A stretch of DNA of 64,000 nucleotides, taken from positions 2,934,501-2,998,500 of the forward strand of contig NZ_CP134696.1 of the NCBI RefSeq assembly GCF_031851795.1, read 5' to 3'. Under the pieces are notes generated by a model. The model searched no databases, was not told the DNA's origin, and saw only the letters and a list, made by a program, of their open reading frames with translations. The position numbers and the translations under genes were made by a program. Origin of the DNA: Pontibacter sp. G13. Its GTDB lineage: Bacteria; Bacteroidota; Bacteroidia; J057. This document shows positions 2,986-36,904 of the stretch, in pieces; the stretch's first letter is position 1, and each line of letters starts with the position of its first letter.

Positions 2986-3021
2986 TAAAAAAAGCCATCT
3001 GCTTCGGTAGGTGGCTTTTTT
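2986..3021 (+). terminator. Rho-independent terminator after TPR gene
   Basis: The arms AAAAAAGCCATCT and AGGTGGCTTTTTT pair with one G-T wobble around a short loop, beginning about 15 nt after the stop codon and ending in a T-run on the plus strand. The A-rich left side would also let it act on the minus strand. Confidence 0.85.
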
Positions 3022-19690: not shown

Positions 19691-20203
19691 TTACTGGACC
19701 AAGTCCAAAACCACCTCTTTGAACAGTCCAAAAATGGCGGTCCAGGCGAAAATACTCACGGTGATATAGGAGAGAATTCTACGGGGTTTCTCTTGGAAGG
19801 AAAGGGCGATTCCGATGGCGATCATGGGAGAGATCAGCGGAATGAGGAATACGACGCCGGTCAGCCCATATCGATGCCAAATCTTGTAAATCTGTCTTCT
19901 ACGAGCGAAGCTCATCGGTTTCTTGCGGAGCTTGATGTACTTTTTGGACCAAGCACGGATGGAAGCGCCAAAGTAAATCATCACAACAGAACCCACCCAT
20001 GCGCCACCACCAGCGGCCAGAATTAGCTCCCAGAAATCAAATCCGGGCAACGCCAAAGCAGCTACCACCCCCAAGAAAAACTTGACGGAGGAAAACAAGA
20101 AGATCGAAATAAATTGGGACCATTCGCTGGCGGTCTGGACCATCAATTCAATCCCATTGGAGACAAGGTTCTCCCACAGGAGGGGTGCAAGTTGCTTGAT
20201 CAT
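19691..20203 (-). CDS. Small integral membrane protein, DedA/YqaA-like topology
   Basis: A 170-residue protein from the ATG at 20201-20203. Hydrophobic segments: IFLFSSVKFFLGVVAALALP, ELILAAGGGAWVGSVVMIYF, GVVFLIPLISPMIAIGIALS and YITVSIFAWTAIFGLF. A basic loop between the second and third (RAWSKKYIKLRKKP, FARRRQIYKIWHRYG) should be cytoplasmic. The Gly/Pro-rich re-entrant look of GLTGVVFLIPLISPM is like that of small export or VTT-type proteins, but I cannot name the family. Longer frames to 20311 rely on a TTG or internal codons. Downstream of upp on the same strand with a 146-bp gap. Confidence 0.7.
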   Translation of the reverse strand: MIKQLAPLLWENLVSNGIELMVQTASEWSQFISIFLFSSVKFFLGVVAALALPGFDFWELILAAGGGAWVGSVVMIYFGASIRAWSKKYIKLRKKPMSFARRRQIYKIWHRYGLTGVVFLIPLISPMIAIGIALSFQEKPRRILSYITVSIFAWTAIFGLFKEVVLDLVQ

Positions 20204-20349
20204 GTAAATGTGCGGAAACCGATTTCGTTGTGCTATCAAACGATATGCAAATAACGCAAGTTGCATCGAATTCACCGAATCAAGAAGATCGCGACCTAAC
20301 TGCCCACACACAATCGCAAATGGTCAACCAGATGGTTCACGCTCCCCAA

Positions 20350-21003
20350 TCAGTGCTTTGGCCCATAGGCGAGGTCTCCCGCGTCTCCCAAACCGGGTAC
20401 GATGTAAGATTTGGCAGTCAGCTCCTTATCCACAGCACCGATAAAAACTTGGGATTGTGGAATGTTGCGACGTACGTATGCAATCCCTTCTTCAGACGCG
20501 ATCGCTCCTGCTATGAATAGGTTGCCGGGCTCTCCTAGTGCTTGTATCTGTTTGTAGGCTTCCACGAGGCTGCGACCCGTCGCGATCATCGGATCGATCA
20601 TGATCAAATCACGCCCTGTGATGGGAGGCACGGAGGTGTACTCGATTTTGATCACGAATTCGTTGCCACGCGTGATGTGTCTATAGGCAGAAATGAAGCC
20701 ATTGTCAGCACGGTCGAACATACGCAGAAATCCTTGATGCAAAGGCACTCCCGCCCGCAGCACTGACACCAAAATAGGCTGCTGCTCAAGGACTTTCACC
20801 TCAAGCTCTCCAAGTGGTGTGGTCGTCTCTTGAGTCGTAAATGAGAGGTGCTTGCTGATTTCATAGGCCATGATCTCTCCCATCCGCTCAAGATTGAACC
20901 TAAAACGGAGGCGGTCCTTCTGAATCTCCTCATCACGGAGTTCATGCAGGATGTTGTTGAGGTAGGATAGGCGGTTGCCTAGGATCGTAACGCTTGAATC
21001 CAT
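20350..21003 (-). CDS. upp: Uracil phosphoribosyltransferase
   Basis: Salvages uracil with PRPP to make UMP in the cytoplasm. The 217 residues carry the PRPP-binding loop LIMIDPMIATGRSL, the VLRAGVPLHQGF loop and the C-terminal uracil-binding segment YIVPGLGDAGDLAYG. The start is ATG at 21001-21003. The first 25 nt overlap the end of the upstream FemAB-like gene on the same strand, so translation is probably coupled, although the two functions have no evident link. Confidence 0.95.
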   Translation of the reverse strand: MDSSVTILGNRLSYLNNILHELRDEEIQKDRLRFRFNLERMGEIMAYEISKHLSFTTQETTTPLGELEVKVLEQQPILVSVLRAGVPLHQGFLRMFDRADNGFISAYRHITRGNEFVIKIEYTSVPPITGRDLIMIDPMIATGRSLVEAYKQIQALGEPGNLFIAGAIASEEGIAYVRRNIPQSQVFIGAVDKELTAKSYIVPGLGDAGDLAYGPKH

Positions 21004-21971
21004 TGGATCGGTTTGGGTAATTGATTTTTGCGAATGCGCAAATATGGAATGGGACTAGCCCCGAATTTCCTGAAAAAATGCTCGACTCCCTGAATCATAG
21101 ACCCTTCGAAGTCAAAAATGGAATCCCCTCGATGCCGTGCTTCCTCAATCTGATTCCACATCAAGGCCACCATCGCTCCCGGATGCCCGCCTTCCGGCAG
21201 GTACTGCCCCATGAGATACCAAGTCGTTCCCCCTTCGTGTGCGTACAACCCCGCTGCAAGCAATTGATGGTCGGCATCTCGCACTTCCACCACTTGCCCC
21301 AAGCCCGAACCAATCAGTCGGTTGGCCAATCGCTCCAGTGAATCACGCCCTTCAGGAACGCCAGCAAGCACATCGTGTCCAGATTCAACCTGCATATCAT
21401 ACAACCTCAAGAATCCTTCTGGGTTCTCAGCAGGCTGAATCAACCATTTCTGACGAACAGCATATTGCAAATTCCTTCGAAAAGGAGGAGCCAATCCAGC
21501 TCGTAATTCATCCAAATGACTTTGAAGATCTAGCTGGAAAGTATATCGGGTCAAAATTTCGCAACCATCCCAGACAAGTGGAATGACATAGGTCAAGTTC
21601 GGGGAAAACTGAAGATCTATCAATGCGACCTCCTGCCAATACTCACATAGCAATTTCAAGACCTCCGCCTCCAATGACAATTGCTTCCGGCGACTTCTGT
21701 CTGCCCTGTATTCGTGCAAAATCCCCAAATGCTGAATGAACGGTAATTGAAGCCAAGCCTTGAATCCCAACTTTTCCCTAGGCACAAAAGGCAAAGCGGC
21801 CACCCATCCCTGAGCATCCGAAACCACCCAAACCTGCCAGAGATTAGATACCGCATCCAAATAATCGTATCTGGCAAACACGGATCTTTGGGTGCTTCGT
21901 GCCACGAATGTGTCCCACTGAGAAGCGGAAAGCTCCGACCATTGAATGACTTGCGTCTGAAGTTTTGACAC
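20979..21971 (-). CDS. FemAB-like GNAT acyltransferase
   Basis: A 330-residue protein with the double-GNAT outline of the FemAB/FemX group. Visible features are the N-terminal WDTFVARSTQRSVFARYDYL, APPFRRNLQYAVRQKW (the FemAB-typical basic segment), LLAAGLYAHEGGTTWYLMGQ and DFEGSMIQGVEHFFRKFGA, the hallmark ending of this family. Such proteins transfer amino acids or acyl groups to cell-surface building blocks or polysaccharide precursors. Start is GTG at 21969-21971, nine nt after the deacetylase gene. Together with the deacetylase and the two Wzz-like genes upstream it suggests a surface-polysaccharide modification role; this is inference from context. Confidence 0.8.
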   Translation of the reverse strand: MSKLQTQVIQWSELSASQWDTFVARSTQRSVFARYDYLDAVSNLWQVWVVSDAQGWVAALPFVPREKLGFKAWLQLPFIQHLGILHEYRADRSRRKQLSLEAEVLKLLCEYWQEVALIDLQFSPNLTYVIPLVWDGCEILTRYTFQLDLQSHLDELRAGLAPPFRRNLQYAVRQKWLIQPAENPEGFLRLYDMQVESGHDVLAGVPEGRDSLERLANRLIGSGLGQVVEVRDADHQLLAAGLYAHEGGTTWYLMGQYLPEGGHPGAMVALMWNQIEEARHRGDSIFDFEGSMIQGVEHFFRKFGASPIPYLRIRKNQLPKPIQWIQALRS

Positions 21972-21980
21972 GTTTTGGGA

Positions 21981-23323
21981 TTATGCGTTCTGTACAATTT
22001 TGAGCATGTCCAGCATGGCAGGACGCCAGTGAACCCACTCTTCGGATTCGCTGAGGCTGTCGTTGTGAGCCAGCAAGGTAAACATTCCCCCATATTTCCG
22101 GGTGGTAGCCAATAAGCTTTCAACATGCTCCAAAGCTTGTTCGGGAGTCAGTCCCATATATTGCTGCAAGGTTCGATCCATGATCATGGTAGGCACCAAT
22201 TGGAGCGTGGTGGCTTTATTGGCCTGAAGATCAAACCAAGGGAAAGGCTCAGCCATGCCGTGCGGAAACCCTCCTTGCTCCACGAGGCATGGCGTGAAAT
22301 CATGCTCAATCCCGATATTGATCAAGCTTCTTCGCGTAGTTGGCAATTGGTATTTGAGGAAATGTTGCCGAGAAGCTTTGACTGGTTGCTGAATGATATC
22401 CGCAAGCTGATGCGTCTCTTGAGCGATCTGGGAGAAATTATTCGAAGAATCGTACCCCGGATGAATTCCCGTATGATATCCGGCCTTGCCTAGTCTTTCA
22501 ATCAGGGAACGATAGGCCCACACTTTCGCGTCATGCTTTCCGTCGAATTTCGAGTTCCGAGACAATAGAAAGAAAAACCATGTATGCTCGGGTGGACACG
22601 TTCGCTCTATGAAGGTAAACGTATCAAAAGGATCTTTTCCTACCGTTGCCGCTTGCCATCGTTCTCTCACCCGATCCTGATTTCCCTTCAACAAGTCTTT
22701 GGCAAATCCACCCATTTGCTCCACCCATCTCCGATGGCGGTACTTCCACGGATGGTCAATATCCCAAGTCAACCGGAATCGATAGGCTAGCTTTCGACGA
22801 GGCTTTAAGTCAGGGAAACGTGCTGAGAGTGCATCCGCAAGCATCTTGGCGTACACATGAACGAGCGGTAATCGATCCAACTGCCACGCTGGTGCCGCAA
22901 CTGTGGAAACCAGATATCGGTGATGCTGATCGCGTTGGTCATCCGTATAGGCAGCATATTCAGTGAGCAGGTAAAAAGACGCTGCAAATACATCGAAATC
23001 CAGATCCGTGGGTGTCGTGTGATGCATGATCCCCAGCTTAGGAACATCCCCTTGCTCACAGGGCAAATCCATCGGGACGACATCATTTCGCTCAAGCATC
23101 CCTAGGCTAGGAACCGAAAACCCGTGCGGATCAGTAATCGGTCCATAAGTGATCAATGGCAAATCCTGAGACGCCGGCAAGGTCTCAACCCATTGATAAT
23201 CCCAAAGGTCTCAACCCATTGATAATCCCATCCGCAAAGCTGGACAAGCACAATATTCAAGACATACTCAAGCCTTGGGGAAGGCTCGGGGGAGAATACC
23301 AGCAAGTCGGGACGATTCTGCAT
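21981..23323 (-). pseudogene. Polysaccharide deacetylase-like gene, frameshifted by a tandem duplication
   Basis: The intact downstream frame covers 21981-23180 but has only a TTG start. It holds the deacetylase-like parts: LTWDIDHPWKYRHR, HTGIHPGYDSSNNFSQIA, ASRQHFLKYQLP, IGIEHDFTPCL and the late LLAHNDSL. The natural N-terminus lies in another frame, from ATG 23321-23323 (MQNRPDLLVFSPEPSPRLEY through CGWDYQWVET). The two frames are separated by a perfect 26-bp direct tandem duplication (23179-23230). Removing one copy joins CGWDYQWVET directly to LPASQDLPL and gives an unbroken 438-residue protein: 1343 bp minus 26 is 1317 bp, exactly 439 codons. So it is inactive, or reversible by slippage, or an assembly error. 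Family role: removal of acyl groups from surface polysaccharides. Confidence 0.8.
23179..23230. repeat. 26-bp perfect tandem duplication, two copies
   Basis: The unit AAGGTCTCAACCCATTGATA plus six more bases occurs at 23179-23204 and again at 23205-23230 without mismatch. The period of 26 is not a multiple of three, so it shifts the reading frame of the deacetylase-like gene near its 5' end. Confidence 0.95.
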
Positions 23324-23417
23324 AGGACAAAAGAGTTGAGTATGCAAAACTAAGAAAAACCCCCATTCGGCTCACCAAACTCAGTTTTTCTTCCAGACGG
23401 TTGTCCAATACGCAAAA

Positions 23418-23456
23418 GCCAAGAGGCGGTCCCGAAGATCGAGACCGCCTCTTGGC
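23418..23456 (-). terminator. Terminator of the first Wzz-like gene
   Basis: GCCAAGAGGCGGTC (23418-23431) pairs perfectly with GACCGCCTCTTGGC (23443-23456), a 14-bp stem with an 11-nt loop. On the minus strand TTTTGCG follows, a short T-run. It ends the Wzz unit before the deacetylase gene. Confidence 0.8.
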
Positions 23457-23474
23457 ATATTGGGATACTTGTTG

Positions 23475-25634
23475 CTAAAGCGTCAAGTTTCGGATTTCCA
23501 CCTTGTTCAGAATCGCGCCTTGGACTTTATCTCCCAAGGACTCTAGATACAAGATAGAGCGGCGGTCTGCCGAATTGACACCTTTGTTGGCTGCGAATAC
23601 CGGAATGATCTTCTCGATGTATCGTTCCAATTCGCGGCTATCCGCATACTCGTTAAGGTGAGATCCTTCGAGCAAGATGATATCGTACTCGCGTTTCAAT
23701 TGCTCCAATAGTTCATTGAACATGTCTGAGGCAAAGATCTCAGAAGGAGAGTAATTTCCCCCTTCACAGCCAATCACATCTACCCCTTCAAACACCGAAC
23801 TTGAGATCAATGCTTTCCTTGGAAGCTCCTTGCTCAGGAAGCGCTCCAAAGATGGAGAAGCAGCCGTGATCTGGGTCAGGGAGTTGTTCTTGAAATTGGT
23901 ATCGATGATCAGTACGCGTTTCCCACTCAAGCTCAAGGAGTAAGCAAGCGACACCAACAGAGAAGTTTTTCCACTGCCAGATTTAGTACTGGTGATCATG
24001 ATGGTCTTAGCTCCTTCGGAAATCACTTCGAAGCGAATTTTGCGAAGAAGTTGCTTGTAGTTTTCCAGGCTTGGGTTTTTGTGGGTTTCACTGAAAAGTG
24101 CCACGAGATCCAAGTTGGTGGTATTCAATCGATTCAAAGGCCCGATCATGCTGAGTCCAGTCATATCGGTGAATCGAGATGGATATCGGATACTGGTATC
24201 GAGGTATTCGAGGAAAACGAACACAACGAGACACATCGAAAAGCTGATCAATCCAGCCAGAATAGTCAGCATGAAGGTTTTGGGAGGGGTTGGATGCTCC
24301 GGGGCCTGCACAAACGCCACTTGGCTGAGATGATGATCAGCCACGTTGTATGCATTGAGTTTGGCTTCATTGAGCTGATCCATCGCCTGCAAATACGCAT
24401 CTCTCGCAAGCTCTACATCTTGCACAAATGGAGATTTTGAGGAAGCTGAGGCCAATGATCCTGCGCTTCCGGCGATTCGGCCAAGCTCTTGATCGAGCGC
24501 CCTAACCATTTGCGTGGAGACCAATACATCAATTTCACGGTCGATTTTGTCTCTAATCAAGCTTTCGCGTTGCCCATTCAATCGCCCCATGCCCTTGATG
24601 ACCTCTTGGTACACCTCCGCTGTCAAATCACCTCGTACCTGCTTCAATGAGTCAGACATTCCTCGGGAGAAATCTGCGCGGACATATTGCCCGACCATTC
24701 GATTCAAGCTCTGTTGCAACAACAAGATCATGTTGTAATCCCGAGTGCCATTTGGGCTCAAATAGGACGCTCGCTCGCTACCGGGAAGATTGTTGCGGAT
24801 TTCTATCAACTCTCTCTCCGAACGGTAAAGGTCTTCGTACACGCGGTTGCGTTCACGCTCCAGTCGGTCGATTTTGTCCAGAACCCCCTGTACTACCGAA
24901 GAAACAACCGTCGTCTGGCTTCCATCTCGATTGCGCTCCCACATCTGAATCTTGTCATCCAAATCGCGGCGGTTCTGAGTGACCATGTTATTGTAGAATG
25001 CAATGGAGTTTCTGGCCTGCTCCGAACGGGCAAATGTGTAATATCTGATAAACTCTTGGCAGAGGTTATTGGCGACAAATGCGGACAAGTATGGATCTTC
25101 TGAACGGAATCGCACTTCGATGAGATCCGTGCCTGGAAGTCTCATTACCTCTAGATTTTCCAAGATGGCATCATGATCGTAAGCCATGAGTCCCAAAATC
25201 TCGGAGTGCTTCAAATCCAGATCGCCATTTCGCTCCATCGGTTTAAGCGAGTCAAGCTTGACCTGATAATGAGCAGCCGCCACACGGAGCTCCTCATCTT
25301 GGTAGCGAGTTTTAAGCTCTTCGAGGGATCTGAATGGCTGAGTTTTCTCCAAATCGTGGAGAATCAACTGATAGCTGACCAAATCCAGCACTTGTGGAGA
25401 CTGGATGACAGAGACCATCGTCTGAAAACGGGCCTCCACTTGGTATTCTGGTGCCGACTCCGAAAAGGACACGCCGCTACCTTCCACCAATCCCGTGGAA
25501 AGCTGGGCAGTCACCTCATAAGAAGGCGGTACTTTATTGGCGATCAAGAAGGTGGTGACCATCGCCACACTCACAATGGCAAGGATAAGCCACTTACGTC
25601 TCAGAAGGACGCGTAATAGATTGATTAGATCCAT
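23475..25634 (-). CDS. Wzz-type polysaccharide co-polymerase fused to a degenerate BY-kinase-like domain
   Basis: A 719-residue inner-membrane protein from the ATG at 25632-25634. It has an N-terminal membrane helix (about residues 15-33, WLILAIVSVAMVTTFLIA), a large periplasmic Wzz/coiled-coil region, a proline-rich PEHPTPPKTF segment and second membrane helix (LTILAGLISFSMCLVVFVFL), then a cytoplasmic P-loop domain. Walker A is intact (STKSGSGKTSLL, Lys556). Walker A' reads VLIIDTNFKN where IDxD is expected, and Walker B reads DIILLEGSHL where an aspartate is expected. The C-terminus (GAILNKVEIRNLTL) has no tyrosine cluster. So chain-length control is likely but tyrosine autophosphorylation is doubtful. 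It lies 52 nt after the second Wzz-like gene, probably in one operon. Confidence 0.85.
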   Translation of the reverse strand: MDLINLLRVLLRRKWLILAIVSVAMVTTFLIANKVPPSYEVTAQLSTGLVEGSGVSFSESAPEYQVEARFQTMVSVIQSPQVLDLVSYQLILHDLEKTQPFRSLEELKTRYQDEELRVAAAHYQVKLDSLKPMERNGDLDLKHSEILGLMAYDHDAILENLEVMRLPGTDLIEVRFRSEDPYLSAFVANNLCQEFIRYYTFARSEQARNSIAFYNNMVTQNRRDLDDKIQMWERNRDGSQTTVVSSVVQGVLDKIDRLERERNRVYEDLYRSERELIEIRNNLPGSERASYLSPNGTRDYNMILLLQQSLNRMVGQYVRADFSRGMSDSLKQVRGDLTAEVYQEVIKGMGRLNGQRESLIRDKIDREIDVLVSTQMVRALDQELGRIAGSAGSLASASSKSPFVQDVELARDAYLQAMDQLNEAKLNAYNVADHHLSQVAFVQAPEHPTPPKTFMLTILAGLISFSMCLVVFVFLEYLDTSIRYPSRFTDMTGLSMIGPLNRLNTTNLDLVALFSETHKNPSLENYKQLLRKIRFEVISEGAKTIMITSTKSGSGKTSLLVSLAYSLSLSGKRVLIIDTNFKNNSLTQITAASPSLERFLSKELPRKALISSSVFEGVDVIGCEGGNYSPSEIFASDMFNELLEQLKREYDIILLEGSHLNEYADSRELERYIEKIIPVFAANKGVNSADRRSILYLESLGDKVQGAILNKVEIRNLTL

Positions 25635-25686
25635 ACATTCCAATAATGGTCCGACAGCCTCAAATATCTAAAGGATTCCCCGCAAT

Positions 25687-26967
25687 TCAAGTATTTGGCT
25701 GTTTGAATCGGAAAAATCCCCACTGCAACAGACACACAAGCCAAAGGAGGAAACATCCTACAAAGGCCATCAATGACAGTGCAATACTTGTGCTAGGGTG
25801 AAAATGCCGGGCAGTAGCCATCCGAATTTGCCGCAATGATCCTTGGACCTGCTGCGACTTCATCTGGATAGTTTTCCACCGGGTAATGGCTTCGATATAT
25901 TCTTGTTCTACTCGATTGGCATCCTGCTCCACCGGCTTGAGCTGGTGGTGTTGCAAGGCCATGAGTTGATTCTTCTTTTCCTGTAGGGACTGGTTCACTT
26001 CTTCGAGTTGTGCCAATGTCCGTCCCAATTCAACCAACAGTGCTTCGCGATCCGGTGCCTGAGCCAATTGCCAAGAAGCTCGGTGAATCACAATGCCCTC
26101 AGTACTCGAAAACTGGGGATCATTCCGTAAGCGCACTCGAAGAGATTCCAGATGCTCAAGTAATTCGTCGCGATTCTGCTCAAGACCCTGAATCTCCAAA
26201 AATAGCTCGACGGTCTGCTCATCTCTCGATTCGGCCAATTGCTTTCTCGCTTGCTGAACCCTCAAGTTCTTCGTGGCAAGTTCAATTCGCTTTTGTTCGA
26301 GGAGCTTGGACAGAACTTCCATATTGGCCTCCACGCGTTCCTGCTCAATCTGCTGATAATAGGCGACGCTGAGTTGACCAAGACCGTTAGCCAAAAATGC
26401 TGCCAATCCCGGATTTACTCCTTCGGCAACAATTCTGATTTGCTGAGTCCCGGAAATTCTGTAGATGCGGATTCGCTGGCGTAGGGTCTCCGGGGTATAT
26501 CCCTGTCGATGGAGAATCTCCAATACCAAACTGTCTCCGGCAGAAGCGCCTAGGTTCACCTGTAGGTGGTCTAGTCGATCGCGAAGTGAATGCTTGATTT
26601 GGGTAAGGTCTTCGAAATCATACTGGGTGAAAATATCCGCCATGTCTCTGAATGGCTCCTCCGAACTCAAATCATGCTCCACCAAGGAGTAGGCCAATAG
26701 CCACAAAATTGGTTCAGAATCCAGCATTTCCTCCACCTCTACCAACCGGTTTTCTAGCACCAACATCGGTTCGGCAGACACTTCTCCACTCGGATCGAAT
26801 TCAGCTGTAGGCATAGTCACCTCCATCCAAACCTCCGCGCTGAAGGAGTCCTGAAAAACGTCAAATACCAAATAGAATATCCAGCCACACAGAATGGGGA
26901 CCGATAGCAGAATGCCCAGTTTGGCTAGGATATGGACTTGATATGTACGCTTGACGGGTGTTTCCAT
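25687..26967 (-). CDS. Second Wzz-like polysaccharide chain-length protein
   Basis: A 426-residue protein with two membrane segments: N-terminal (LAKLGILLSVPILCGWIFYL) and C-terminal (IALSLMAFVGCFLLWLVCLL). Between them is a periplasmic domain with long coiled coils (about residues 200-370, for example EVLSKLLEQKRIELATKNL). The segment RISGTQQIRIVAEGVNPGLA followed by AFLANGLGQLSVAYYQQ is the Wzz-type domain also seen in the neighbour. No kinase domain follows. Family knowledge: such proteins set the chain length or assist export of surface polysaccharides. No glycosyltransferases or Wza/Wzx/Wzy genes are in the window, so substrate is unknown. ATG at 26965-26967, first gene of the unit. Confidence 0.8.
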   Translation of the reverse strand: METPVKRTYQVHILAKLGILLSVPILCGWIFYLVFDVFQDSFSAEVWMEVTMPTAEFDPSGEVSAEPMLVLENRLVEVEEMLDSEPILWLLAYSLVEHDLSSEEPFRDMADIFTQYDFEDLTQIKHSLRDRLDHLQVNLGASAGDSLVLEILHRQGYTPETLRQRIRIYRISGTQQIRIVAEGVNPGLAAFLANGLGQLSVAYYQQIEQERVEANMEVLSKLLEQKRIELATKNLRVQQARKQLAESRDEQTVELFLEIQGLEQNRDELLEHLESLRVRLRNDPQFSSTEGIVIHRASWQLAQAPDREALLVELGRTLAQLEEVNQSLQEKKNQLMALQHHQLKPVEQDANRVEQEYIEAITRWKTIQMKSQQVQGSLRQIRMATARHFHPSTSIALSLMAFVGCFLLWLVCLLQWGFFRFKQPNT

Positions 26968-34480: not shown

Positions 34481-36904
34481 ATGATTACTCCGCTTAGACT
34501 TACTTCCATTTGCCTCATGGTCATGAGCTGGTTGCTCGCGGCCCCATTAGGCTATTCGCAAAACGCTATCCATGTATATTCAGACGATATTCCATGGAGC
34601 GAACTTCCCCCGGTGATTGCCCCCGGTCAACTGACGTCCATCCAGACGGCCGTTTCGCAGGCGCAGAGTGGCGACTCGATCATCATCCACGAGGGGATCT
34701 ACCGTGAGCGCATCCAGATCACCAAGAGCAATTTGGTACTGGCCAACTTTGAGGATGACTACGTGCTGGTTACTGGCGCTGAGCCTGTCACCAACTGGGT
34801 CAATGCCACGGGCATGGCTCCCGGCGTGAAAGTCGCCAATGTGGGCAGCCTCGGGATCGAAAGTGAATTTTCACAATTGTTCATCGATGGACATGCTGGC
34901 ATGATGGCGCGGCACCCCAACAACACGATCGGGGATCTGATGCTCCCGCTGGAGGACAATTCTGGCTATTCCCTCTTGACAAGCGTCCACAAAGATCAGG
35001 GCGCCAATGCGCTCGGTCACGCAACCTTGGAGGCGAGCATTCCAAACGTAGATGTGACAGGCGGGATTTTCCGTGGATTGACGGGAAAAATGCGGAACTA
35101 CGTATTTGGGAATATCACCGCCCAGAGTGGAAATACGGTCTCCTTTCAGGCCATCAACAAGGGACAATGGAAAAATGAACCCGCCATCGCCAACACCAAG
35201 CACAAGGCGGGTTGGGGATTCTTACTCCACAAAAACCTGATCGATATGCCGGGAGAGTGGTTCCTCGACAATGGCATGCTGTATTTCCTGCCACCAGCAA
35301 ATACCCCTGTAGAAAATCTGAGACTGGAAATTCAGGTCCGAAATCAGGTCCTCAGAATCAACAATGCCCAGAACCTCGTCATGCATGGATTGAATTTCGT
35401 GGCGGGGCATGGTGAAATGCTCAATTCGTCCAATCTGACCTTCGAAGGATGTTCCTGGCGGCATCTTCAGCCATTCTGGACGCCCAACAACTACGGCGAC
35501 AATGACTCCGACAATACGGGGATTTTTCTGGACGGAACGACCAACACCTCCTTCACCGATTGCTACTTGGGACATACATGGGGCAATGGATTCGCGATCT
35601 TGGATGGCGGAAATCACACCTTCGACAACTGTGTCATCGAGGATATCGCTTCTATCGGGATCTTTGCTTCGGCGATCTACACGCGGACGGGACCCGTGAC
35701 GGTACAGAATTGCACCTTCGGAAAGGCTGGAAGATTCCACCTTCGCATGAGGACCAGCGACAAGATGGATGTCTACGATTCCGATTTCTACGGAGCGATG
35801 ATGATGGGCGAGGATGCCGGGCCGATCGAAGCTACGAGTACCGGCTCTCTCAATCCATTGAACATGCAGGGAAGTGAATTTGCCTACAACAAGGTACACG
35901 ACTGCTTCGGAATTCCTGTGTTTGACGGAAACTACAACAAGCAGTTTGTGGTGGCCTTCTACATGGAGGATGTGCACAATTACACAGCGCACCACAACTT
36001 GGTCTACAACATCAGATCCAACAACTACAACGGTCCGCATTCCTATCAGAAAGCGGGGGCCTTCCTCTATCTCGGACCGCGATACAACTACATGGATCTG
36101 CCTGTGAATTACTACAACAACACGGTCTGGGATTACGACAAGAGCATCAACATCTGGCATATCGAGGCGGACAACTGGCAAGATCTCGGGATGGCAGAAT
36201 CCGGCGGTAGCATGATGGACGGTCATTTCGAGAACAACATCATGCAATCTGGCACTTCCTTCAAGCTCAACTGGACCAAGCAGATCCTCACCAGCACAGG
36301 CGGATCAGCGGGTTGGGTGTCGGTCACCAATGCACCGAGCATCGAGACGACGGACTTCAACGCATTTGTCACACACGGCCAGACCGTAGACTATCATTTC
36401 AATGCGTCCCACAACCAGACCTTGGATCTGACGGATGAAAGCCTCCACTTCGCCGATGCTGCAAATGGGGACTTCTCTATTGAGCCCAATTCCAGCGCCA
36501 AGGCTGCGGGCAAGGTCATCCCGGGCATCACCTCCAGTGCAACGCCCGACCTAGGCGCATTTGAAGGGAGCAATCGAGTGATGATGGCTGGAGCGACCCT
36601 CGGCACACCGAATTTCCGGGAACTGGGCAATTCATTGACGAGCCTTCCCGCTCAGTTCGAGCAAGGTCAGATTCGTCTGTTCCCGAATCCCGTACATGAG
36701 CAGTTGAGCATTTCACAGGAGACTCCATTTCAGGCTGGCACAAATGTTCAGGTGTTTTCCCTGAATGGTCAGCAAGTCTTGACGCAGGACATTCGTCATG
36801 AAGCACATGAGGTGTCTATCGACGTTTCCGCCCTGCCAAAGGGCATCTACTTGCTGCAATTGAATGGAGACCCATTGCTCACCACGAAATTTATCAAGCG
36901 ATAG
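34481..36904 (+). CDS. Secreted right-handed beta-helix protein with T9SS sorting domain
   Basis: An 807-residue secreted protein. Signal peptide about residues 1-26 (hydrophobic LMVMSWLLAAPLG). The start of the mature part (LTSIQTAVSQAQSGDSIIIH then EGIYRERIQI) is the opening turn typical of pectate-lyase-like and polysaccharide-lyase family 6-like right-handed beta-helices. Repeated helix rungs follow (LTFEGCSWRHL, TSFTDCYLGHTWGNGFAIL, HTFDNCVIEDIASIGIFA, GPVTVQNCTFGKAGRFHLR). The last 80 residues have the type A sorting domain: VQVFSLNGQQVL, LPKGIYLLQL and a terminal FIKR. So it should be exported by the type IX system to the surface or medium and probably binds or cleaves a polysaccharide. 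Catalytic residues could not be assigned. Confidence 0.88.
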   Translation: MITPLRLTSICLMVMSWLLAAPLGYSQNAIHVYSDDIPWSELPPVIAPGQLTSIQTAVSQAQSGDSIIIHEGIYRERIQITKSNLVLANFEDDYVLVTGAEPVTNWVNATGMAPGVKVANVGSLGIESEFSQLFIDGHAGMMARHPNNTIGDLMLPLEDNSGYSLLTSVHKDQGANALGHATLEASIPNVDVTGGIFRGLTGKMRNYVFGNITAQSGNTVSFQAINKGQWKNEPAIANTKHKAGWGFLLHKNLIDMPGEWFLDNGMLYFLPPANTPVENLRLEIQVRNQVLRINNAQNLVMHGLNFVAGHGEMLNSSNLTFEGCSWRHLQPFWTPNNYGDNDSDNTGIFLDGTTNTSFTDCYLGHTWGNGFAILDGGNHTFDNCVIEDIASIGIFASAIYTRTGPVTVQNCTFGKAGRFHLRMRTSDKMDVYDSDFYGAMMMGEDAGPIEATSTGSLNPLNMQGSEFAYNKVHDCFGIPVFDGNYNKQFVVAFYMEDVHNYTAHHNLVYNIRSNNYNGPHSYQKAGAFLYLGPRYNYMDLPVNYYNNTVWDYDKSINIWHIEADNWQDLGMAESGGSMMDGHFENNIMQSGTSFKLNWTKQILTSTGGSAGWVSVTNAPSIETTDFNAFVTHGQTVDYHFNASHNQTLDLTDESLHFADAANGDFSIEPNSSAKAAGKVIPGITSSATPDLGAFEGSNRVMMAGATLGTPNFRELGNSLTSLPAQFEQGQIRLFPNPVHEQLSISQETPFQAGTNVQVFSLNGQQVLTQDIRHEAHEVSIDVSALPKGIYLLQLNGDPLLTTKFIKR

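Follow-up and report, generated by a model that had tools for sequence, protein, structure and literature searches.

Pontibacter sp. G13 carries a perfect 26-bp tandem duplication within its sole vimE-like deacetylase gene. We consider it likely that this duplication is recent and spontaneous, and that it inactivated the gene. The window analyzed here is a stretch of 64,000 nucleotides of contig NZ_CP134696.1 (positions 2,934,501 to 2,998,500 of the forward strand), and all positions below refer to it.

The 26-bp repeat and the two reading frames

The repeat unit is AAGGTCTCAACCCATTGATAATCCCA. It is present in two head-to-tail copies in a gene of the reverse strand, copy A at 23179-23204 and copy B at 23205-23230. 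The two copies are identical, as the original prediction stated, with 0 mismatches over the 52 bp (23179-23230). The identity stops exactly at the borders of the unit, so there is no microhomology at the repeat ends. This is the only perfect tandem repeat of the window with a unit of at least 10 bp. Allowing three mismatches, we found no further occurrence of the unit in the 7,674,920-bp genome (3 contigs). By chance, about 1e-5 perfect tandem repeats with a unit of 20-300 bp are expected per genome.

The duplication divides the vimE-like gene into two frames, both on the reverse strand. The N-terminal frame (23153..23323) starts at ATG 23323, and its translation is MQNRPDLLVFSPEPSPRLEYVLNIVLVQLCGWDYQWVET. 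As 26 bp is not divisible by three, the frame is lost after 39 native residues. Translation enters the second repeat copy out of frame, adds 17 out-of-frame residues and reaches the TGA at 23155-23153 once 56 codons have been read. This agrees with the predicted stop position of about 23153. The C-terminal frame (21981..23180) encodes 399 aa, most of a VimE-like CE4/NodB deacetylase, including the catalytic domain. Its first start is TTG 23180, and TTG codons are the only starts ahead of the ATG at its residue 28. The junction can be followed in both frames: the N frame reads MQNRPDLLVF...CGWDYQWVET, and the other frame reads ...DYQWVET-LPASQDLPLITYG. With one copy, the gene would have 1343-26 = 1317 nt, that is, 438 aa plus the stop. 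These are the 439 codons predicted, the stop being counted. The homologs have 416-444 aa.

Programmed -1 frameshifting was also considered. It was rejected after an inspection by eye, in which no -1 slippery heptamer was seen in the overlap of both frames.

Homologs and the ancestral state

Homologs of the 399-aa part are present in 55 of the 60 related genomes, with full-length matches that have no internal stops. In the alignment, residues 1-39 of the N-terminal piece fit the conserved start of the homologs (...PRLxYxLxxxF..LGxxYQL..), and the C-terminal piece continues directly. In one relative (L034), the two pieces match adjoining stretches, with the border at 3000/3001. Both halves stand in one frame in the homologs, and one copy is therefore the ancestral state. 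A second copy of the vimE-like gene was not found in the G13 genome. Likewise, about 30 distinct homologous loci have no perfect tandem repeat at the matching site. Judged by these comparisons, the 26-bp duplication is specific to Pontibacter sp. G13 among the genomes compared, where the genus is represented by one genome. Another repeat, a perfect 14-bp tandem repeat with 2.3 copies, lies just upstream of the vimE-like gene in a relative (L037:2777-2808, the same as L009:2797-2828).

The copies are identical and the rest of the gene is open, so the duplication would be recent. A recent knockout was one of the two options of the original prediction. It accords well with the perfect copies, the open remainder of 399 codons and the intact genes of the relatives. 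The duplication is perfect, its unit is not a multiple of three, and the gene is otherwise conserved in one frame. Those are the features by which loss of function through tandem duplication is recognized.

An error of sequencing or assembly would produce the same picture. The true genome would then have one copy and an intact gene. Nearly all relatives do have an intact gene, the G13 gene is fully open apart from the duplication, and the two-copy allele is known from the assembly consensus of one genome of the genus. However, the assembly is near-complete, with 3 contigs, and ordinary reads can cover a repeat of 52 bp. Moreover, in 60 sampled stretches, no clear gene carries a duplication of this kind, which argues against a systematic artefact. 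We regard this explanation as unlikely.

We also looked at other perfect repeats in 1.26 Mb sampled from the genome. For the most part, these are 12-mers that keep the frame, one unit of 216 bp that also keeps it, an array of low complexity, and repeats outside clear conserved genes; four short ones are of uncertain coding status. On this sample, we rejected the duplication as a widespread feature of the genome. The 216-bp repeat (L061, G000:C1:2023834) is perfect, has 2.3 tandem copies and lies in frame within an open frame of 748 codons. The low-complexity minisatellite (L054, about 2160-2760; G000:C1:1137164-1137700) has GGGGTGT-type units, and several frames are open at once.

Protein family and predicted structure

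The C-terminal frame matches DUF7033 in Pfam. It scores 123.6 bits on the NCBIfam profile VimE (NF053580), far short of the 440 bits required of an equivalog. With 124.8 bits, an intact relative does hardly better on this profile, so the shortfall comes from distance and not from truncation. The predicted structure of the C-frame protein (pLDDT 88) shows a CE4 deacetylase fold. The best solved structures against this model are 3rxz, 3qbu and ArnD 8t0j (Z about 17), and a search of solved structures by sequence gave no match. Together, the CE4 fold, the likeness to VimE and the single frame of the homologs bear out the prediction of a deacetylase gene thrown out of frame. In the predicted structure of a full-length relative, the region missing here forms a strand-helix-strand (pLDDT 95-98).

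The catalytic domain, which begins near residue 134 of the 399-aa part, is intact and keeps its conserved catalytic residues. If a TTG served as start, the N-truncated product could therefore retain some activity. The gene would then still be functional, with translation restarting at TTG 23180, which precedes the N-frame stop by about 25 nt, or at a later start. The C frame, open for 399 codons with those residues, and its confident CE4 model are consistent with such a product. Nevertheless, the relatives conserve the strand-helix-strand that is missing here, and its structure is predicted with confidence in them. Also, no ATG precedes residue 28 of the C frame, only TTG starts, and no slippery heptamer was visible where the frames overlap. 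A functional restart seems highly improbable to us.

Genomic neighborhood and transcription

The gene belongs to a conserved block on the reverse strand. The next gene of the operon (20979..21971) encodes a VimA-like acyltransferase (GNAT/FemAB), according to profile matches and synteny. It is followed by a uracil phosphoribosyltransferase (UPRTase; 20350..21003; profile match and synteny). The fourth gene, assigned by synteny, encodes a 206-aa protein without a Pfam match (19691..20311). The order vimE-vimA-UPRT-p206 recurs in relatives.

On the other side of the vimE-like gene, a strong hairpin followed by a T-run (23405..23463, reverse strand; z -9.2) probably terminates the transcript of the Wzc-like gene upstream. 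It lies 5' of the vimE-like gene, which therefore likely begins its own transcript. A weak match to the Bacteroidota-type promoter, TTTG-N23-TAGTTTTG, stands ahead of the gene (23345..23379, reverse strand). The window has 5 such matches against 1.15 expected, which is suggestive only. The hairpin and the weak promoter match suggest a transcript start just upstream of the vimE-like gene. Two proteins are encoded directly upstream (23475-26967): the Wzc-like one, of the chain-length/tyrosine-kinase kind, and a companion of 426 aa that has no Pfam match.

T9SS and the predicted linking sugar

In Porphyromonas gingivalis, VimE is a putative deacetylase and VimA a presumed amino-acid transferase. 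They finish the linking sugar by which T9SS cargo is attached to A-LPS (PMC7468200; PMC13086638), and the cargo modification needs both proteins (PMC7468200). The genome of Pontibacter sp. G13 encodes a T9SS with the PorU sortase (1192 bits) and CTD cargo, with at least 150 matches to T9SS C-terminal tails. The vimA-like gene adjoins the vimE-like gene, as expected of a Wbp/Vim locus. Regarding the Wbp genes, a DegT aminotransferase gene lies beside a nucleotide-sugar dehydrogenase gene, near KdtA; WbpB and WbpD were not identified in the genome. Homology and neighborhood indicate that the vimE-like gene probably contributes to the sugar that links T9SS cargo. In place of a surface polysaccharide in general, as in the original prediction, one can name a VimE/VimA-like locus, probably for this linker.

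The co-occurrence of the VimE-like gene and PorU is near universal in the 60 relatives, too uniform to inform. One relative has its PorU matched in two pieces within a single open frame of 1214 aa (G034:C3:402620-406114), probably because of an insertion within the protein. Within the window, positions 34481-36904 encode an 807-aa beta-helix protein with a T9SS C-terminal sorting domain.

Discussion

Knockout by a spontaneous, unstable duplication is the most economical reading of these results. The remaining 399 codons would either not be translated or yield just an N-truncated product. As a consequence, the T9SS linking sugar would be left incomplete. By analogy with Porphyromonas, the cargo would be secreted and not attached to the surface glycolipid. 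Polar effects on vimA may perhaps occur too. If replication slippage or recombination removed exactly one copy, the frame would be restored. The allele is thus potentially reversible, but in the manner of any unstable mutation and not as a dedicated switch. Perhaps this unstable loss-of-function allele was selected in culture.

The original prediction also offered reversible on/off switching. As an evolved phase-variation switch, the locus would gain and lose the 26-bp copy repeatedly, a bet-hedging between surface-anchored and released T9SS cargo. The two perfect copies could in principle slip back. The target gene controls a probable surface trait, and sequence duplications in pneumococcal capsule genes are a precedent. 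However, there are just two copies of a long unit and not a multi-copy hypermutable array. The repeat ends have no microhomology that would favor re-duplication. The homologous loci of the relatives, about 30, lack a perfect repeat at the site, and a second allele was not seen in the one genome of the genus. Furthermore, within the 1.26 Mb sampled, no clear conserved gene is put out of frame by another two-copy duplication. Therefore, we find an evolved switch quite unlikely. A stronger claim is that more than 100 secreted proteins switch reversibly between surface-anchored and released states as the sole vimE-like gene gains and loses the 26-bp copy; this we hold to be very unlikely.

If the knockout is real, an enzyme that probably helps to complete the glycan linker of T9SS cargo has been lost naturally, in a way that may revert by itself. 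Such a case would allow two questions to be asked: do environmental Bacteroidota make any use of the VimE/VimA linker, and can cells benefit from releasing secreted enzymes instead of anchoring them? As mutation by tandem duplication, it is an ordinary case; its importance lies more in the gene that was hit than in the duplication itself.

Contingency genes with simple-sequence repeats, as in Campylobacter, Neisseria and Helicobacter, have many short units, and the copy number sets the frame. Here the frame also depends on copy number, but with two copies of a 26-bp unit. The locus resembles that of P. gingivalis VimE, in the Wbp/Vim pathway (PMC7468200): a CE4-type deacetylase beside a VimA-like FemAB/GNAT protein in T9SS-bearing Bacteroidota. 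Unlike P. gingivalis VimE, the gene here is frameshifted, scores 124 bits against a cut-off of 440, and has a linking sugar predicted by homology.

The duplication itself is closest to those in pneumococcal capsule genes. Spontaneous and reversible sequence duplications are described for cap3A, cap8E and tts (Waite 2001, 2003, as cited in PMC4022640 and PMC4243769). For insertions of 9 bp or less, PMC4022640 gives a reversion of about 1e-5 at most. A longer unit, such as 26 bp, should revert at least as readily. In both systems, a tandem duplication breaks a surface-glycan gene and its precise loss is possible. In the pneumococcal genes, reversible loss was observed in culture, whereas the vimE-like locus is known from one allele of one genome. 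The pneumococcal targets make capsule, and the vimE-like gene acts on what is probably a protein-linker sugar.
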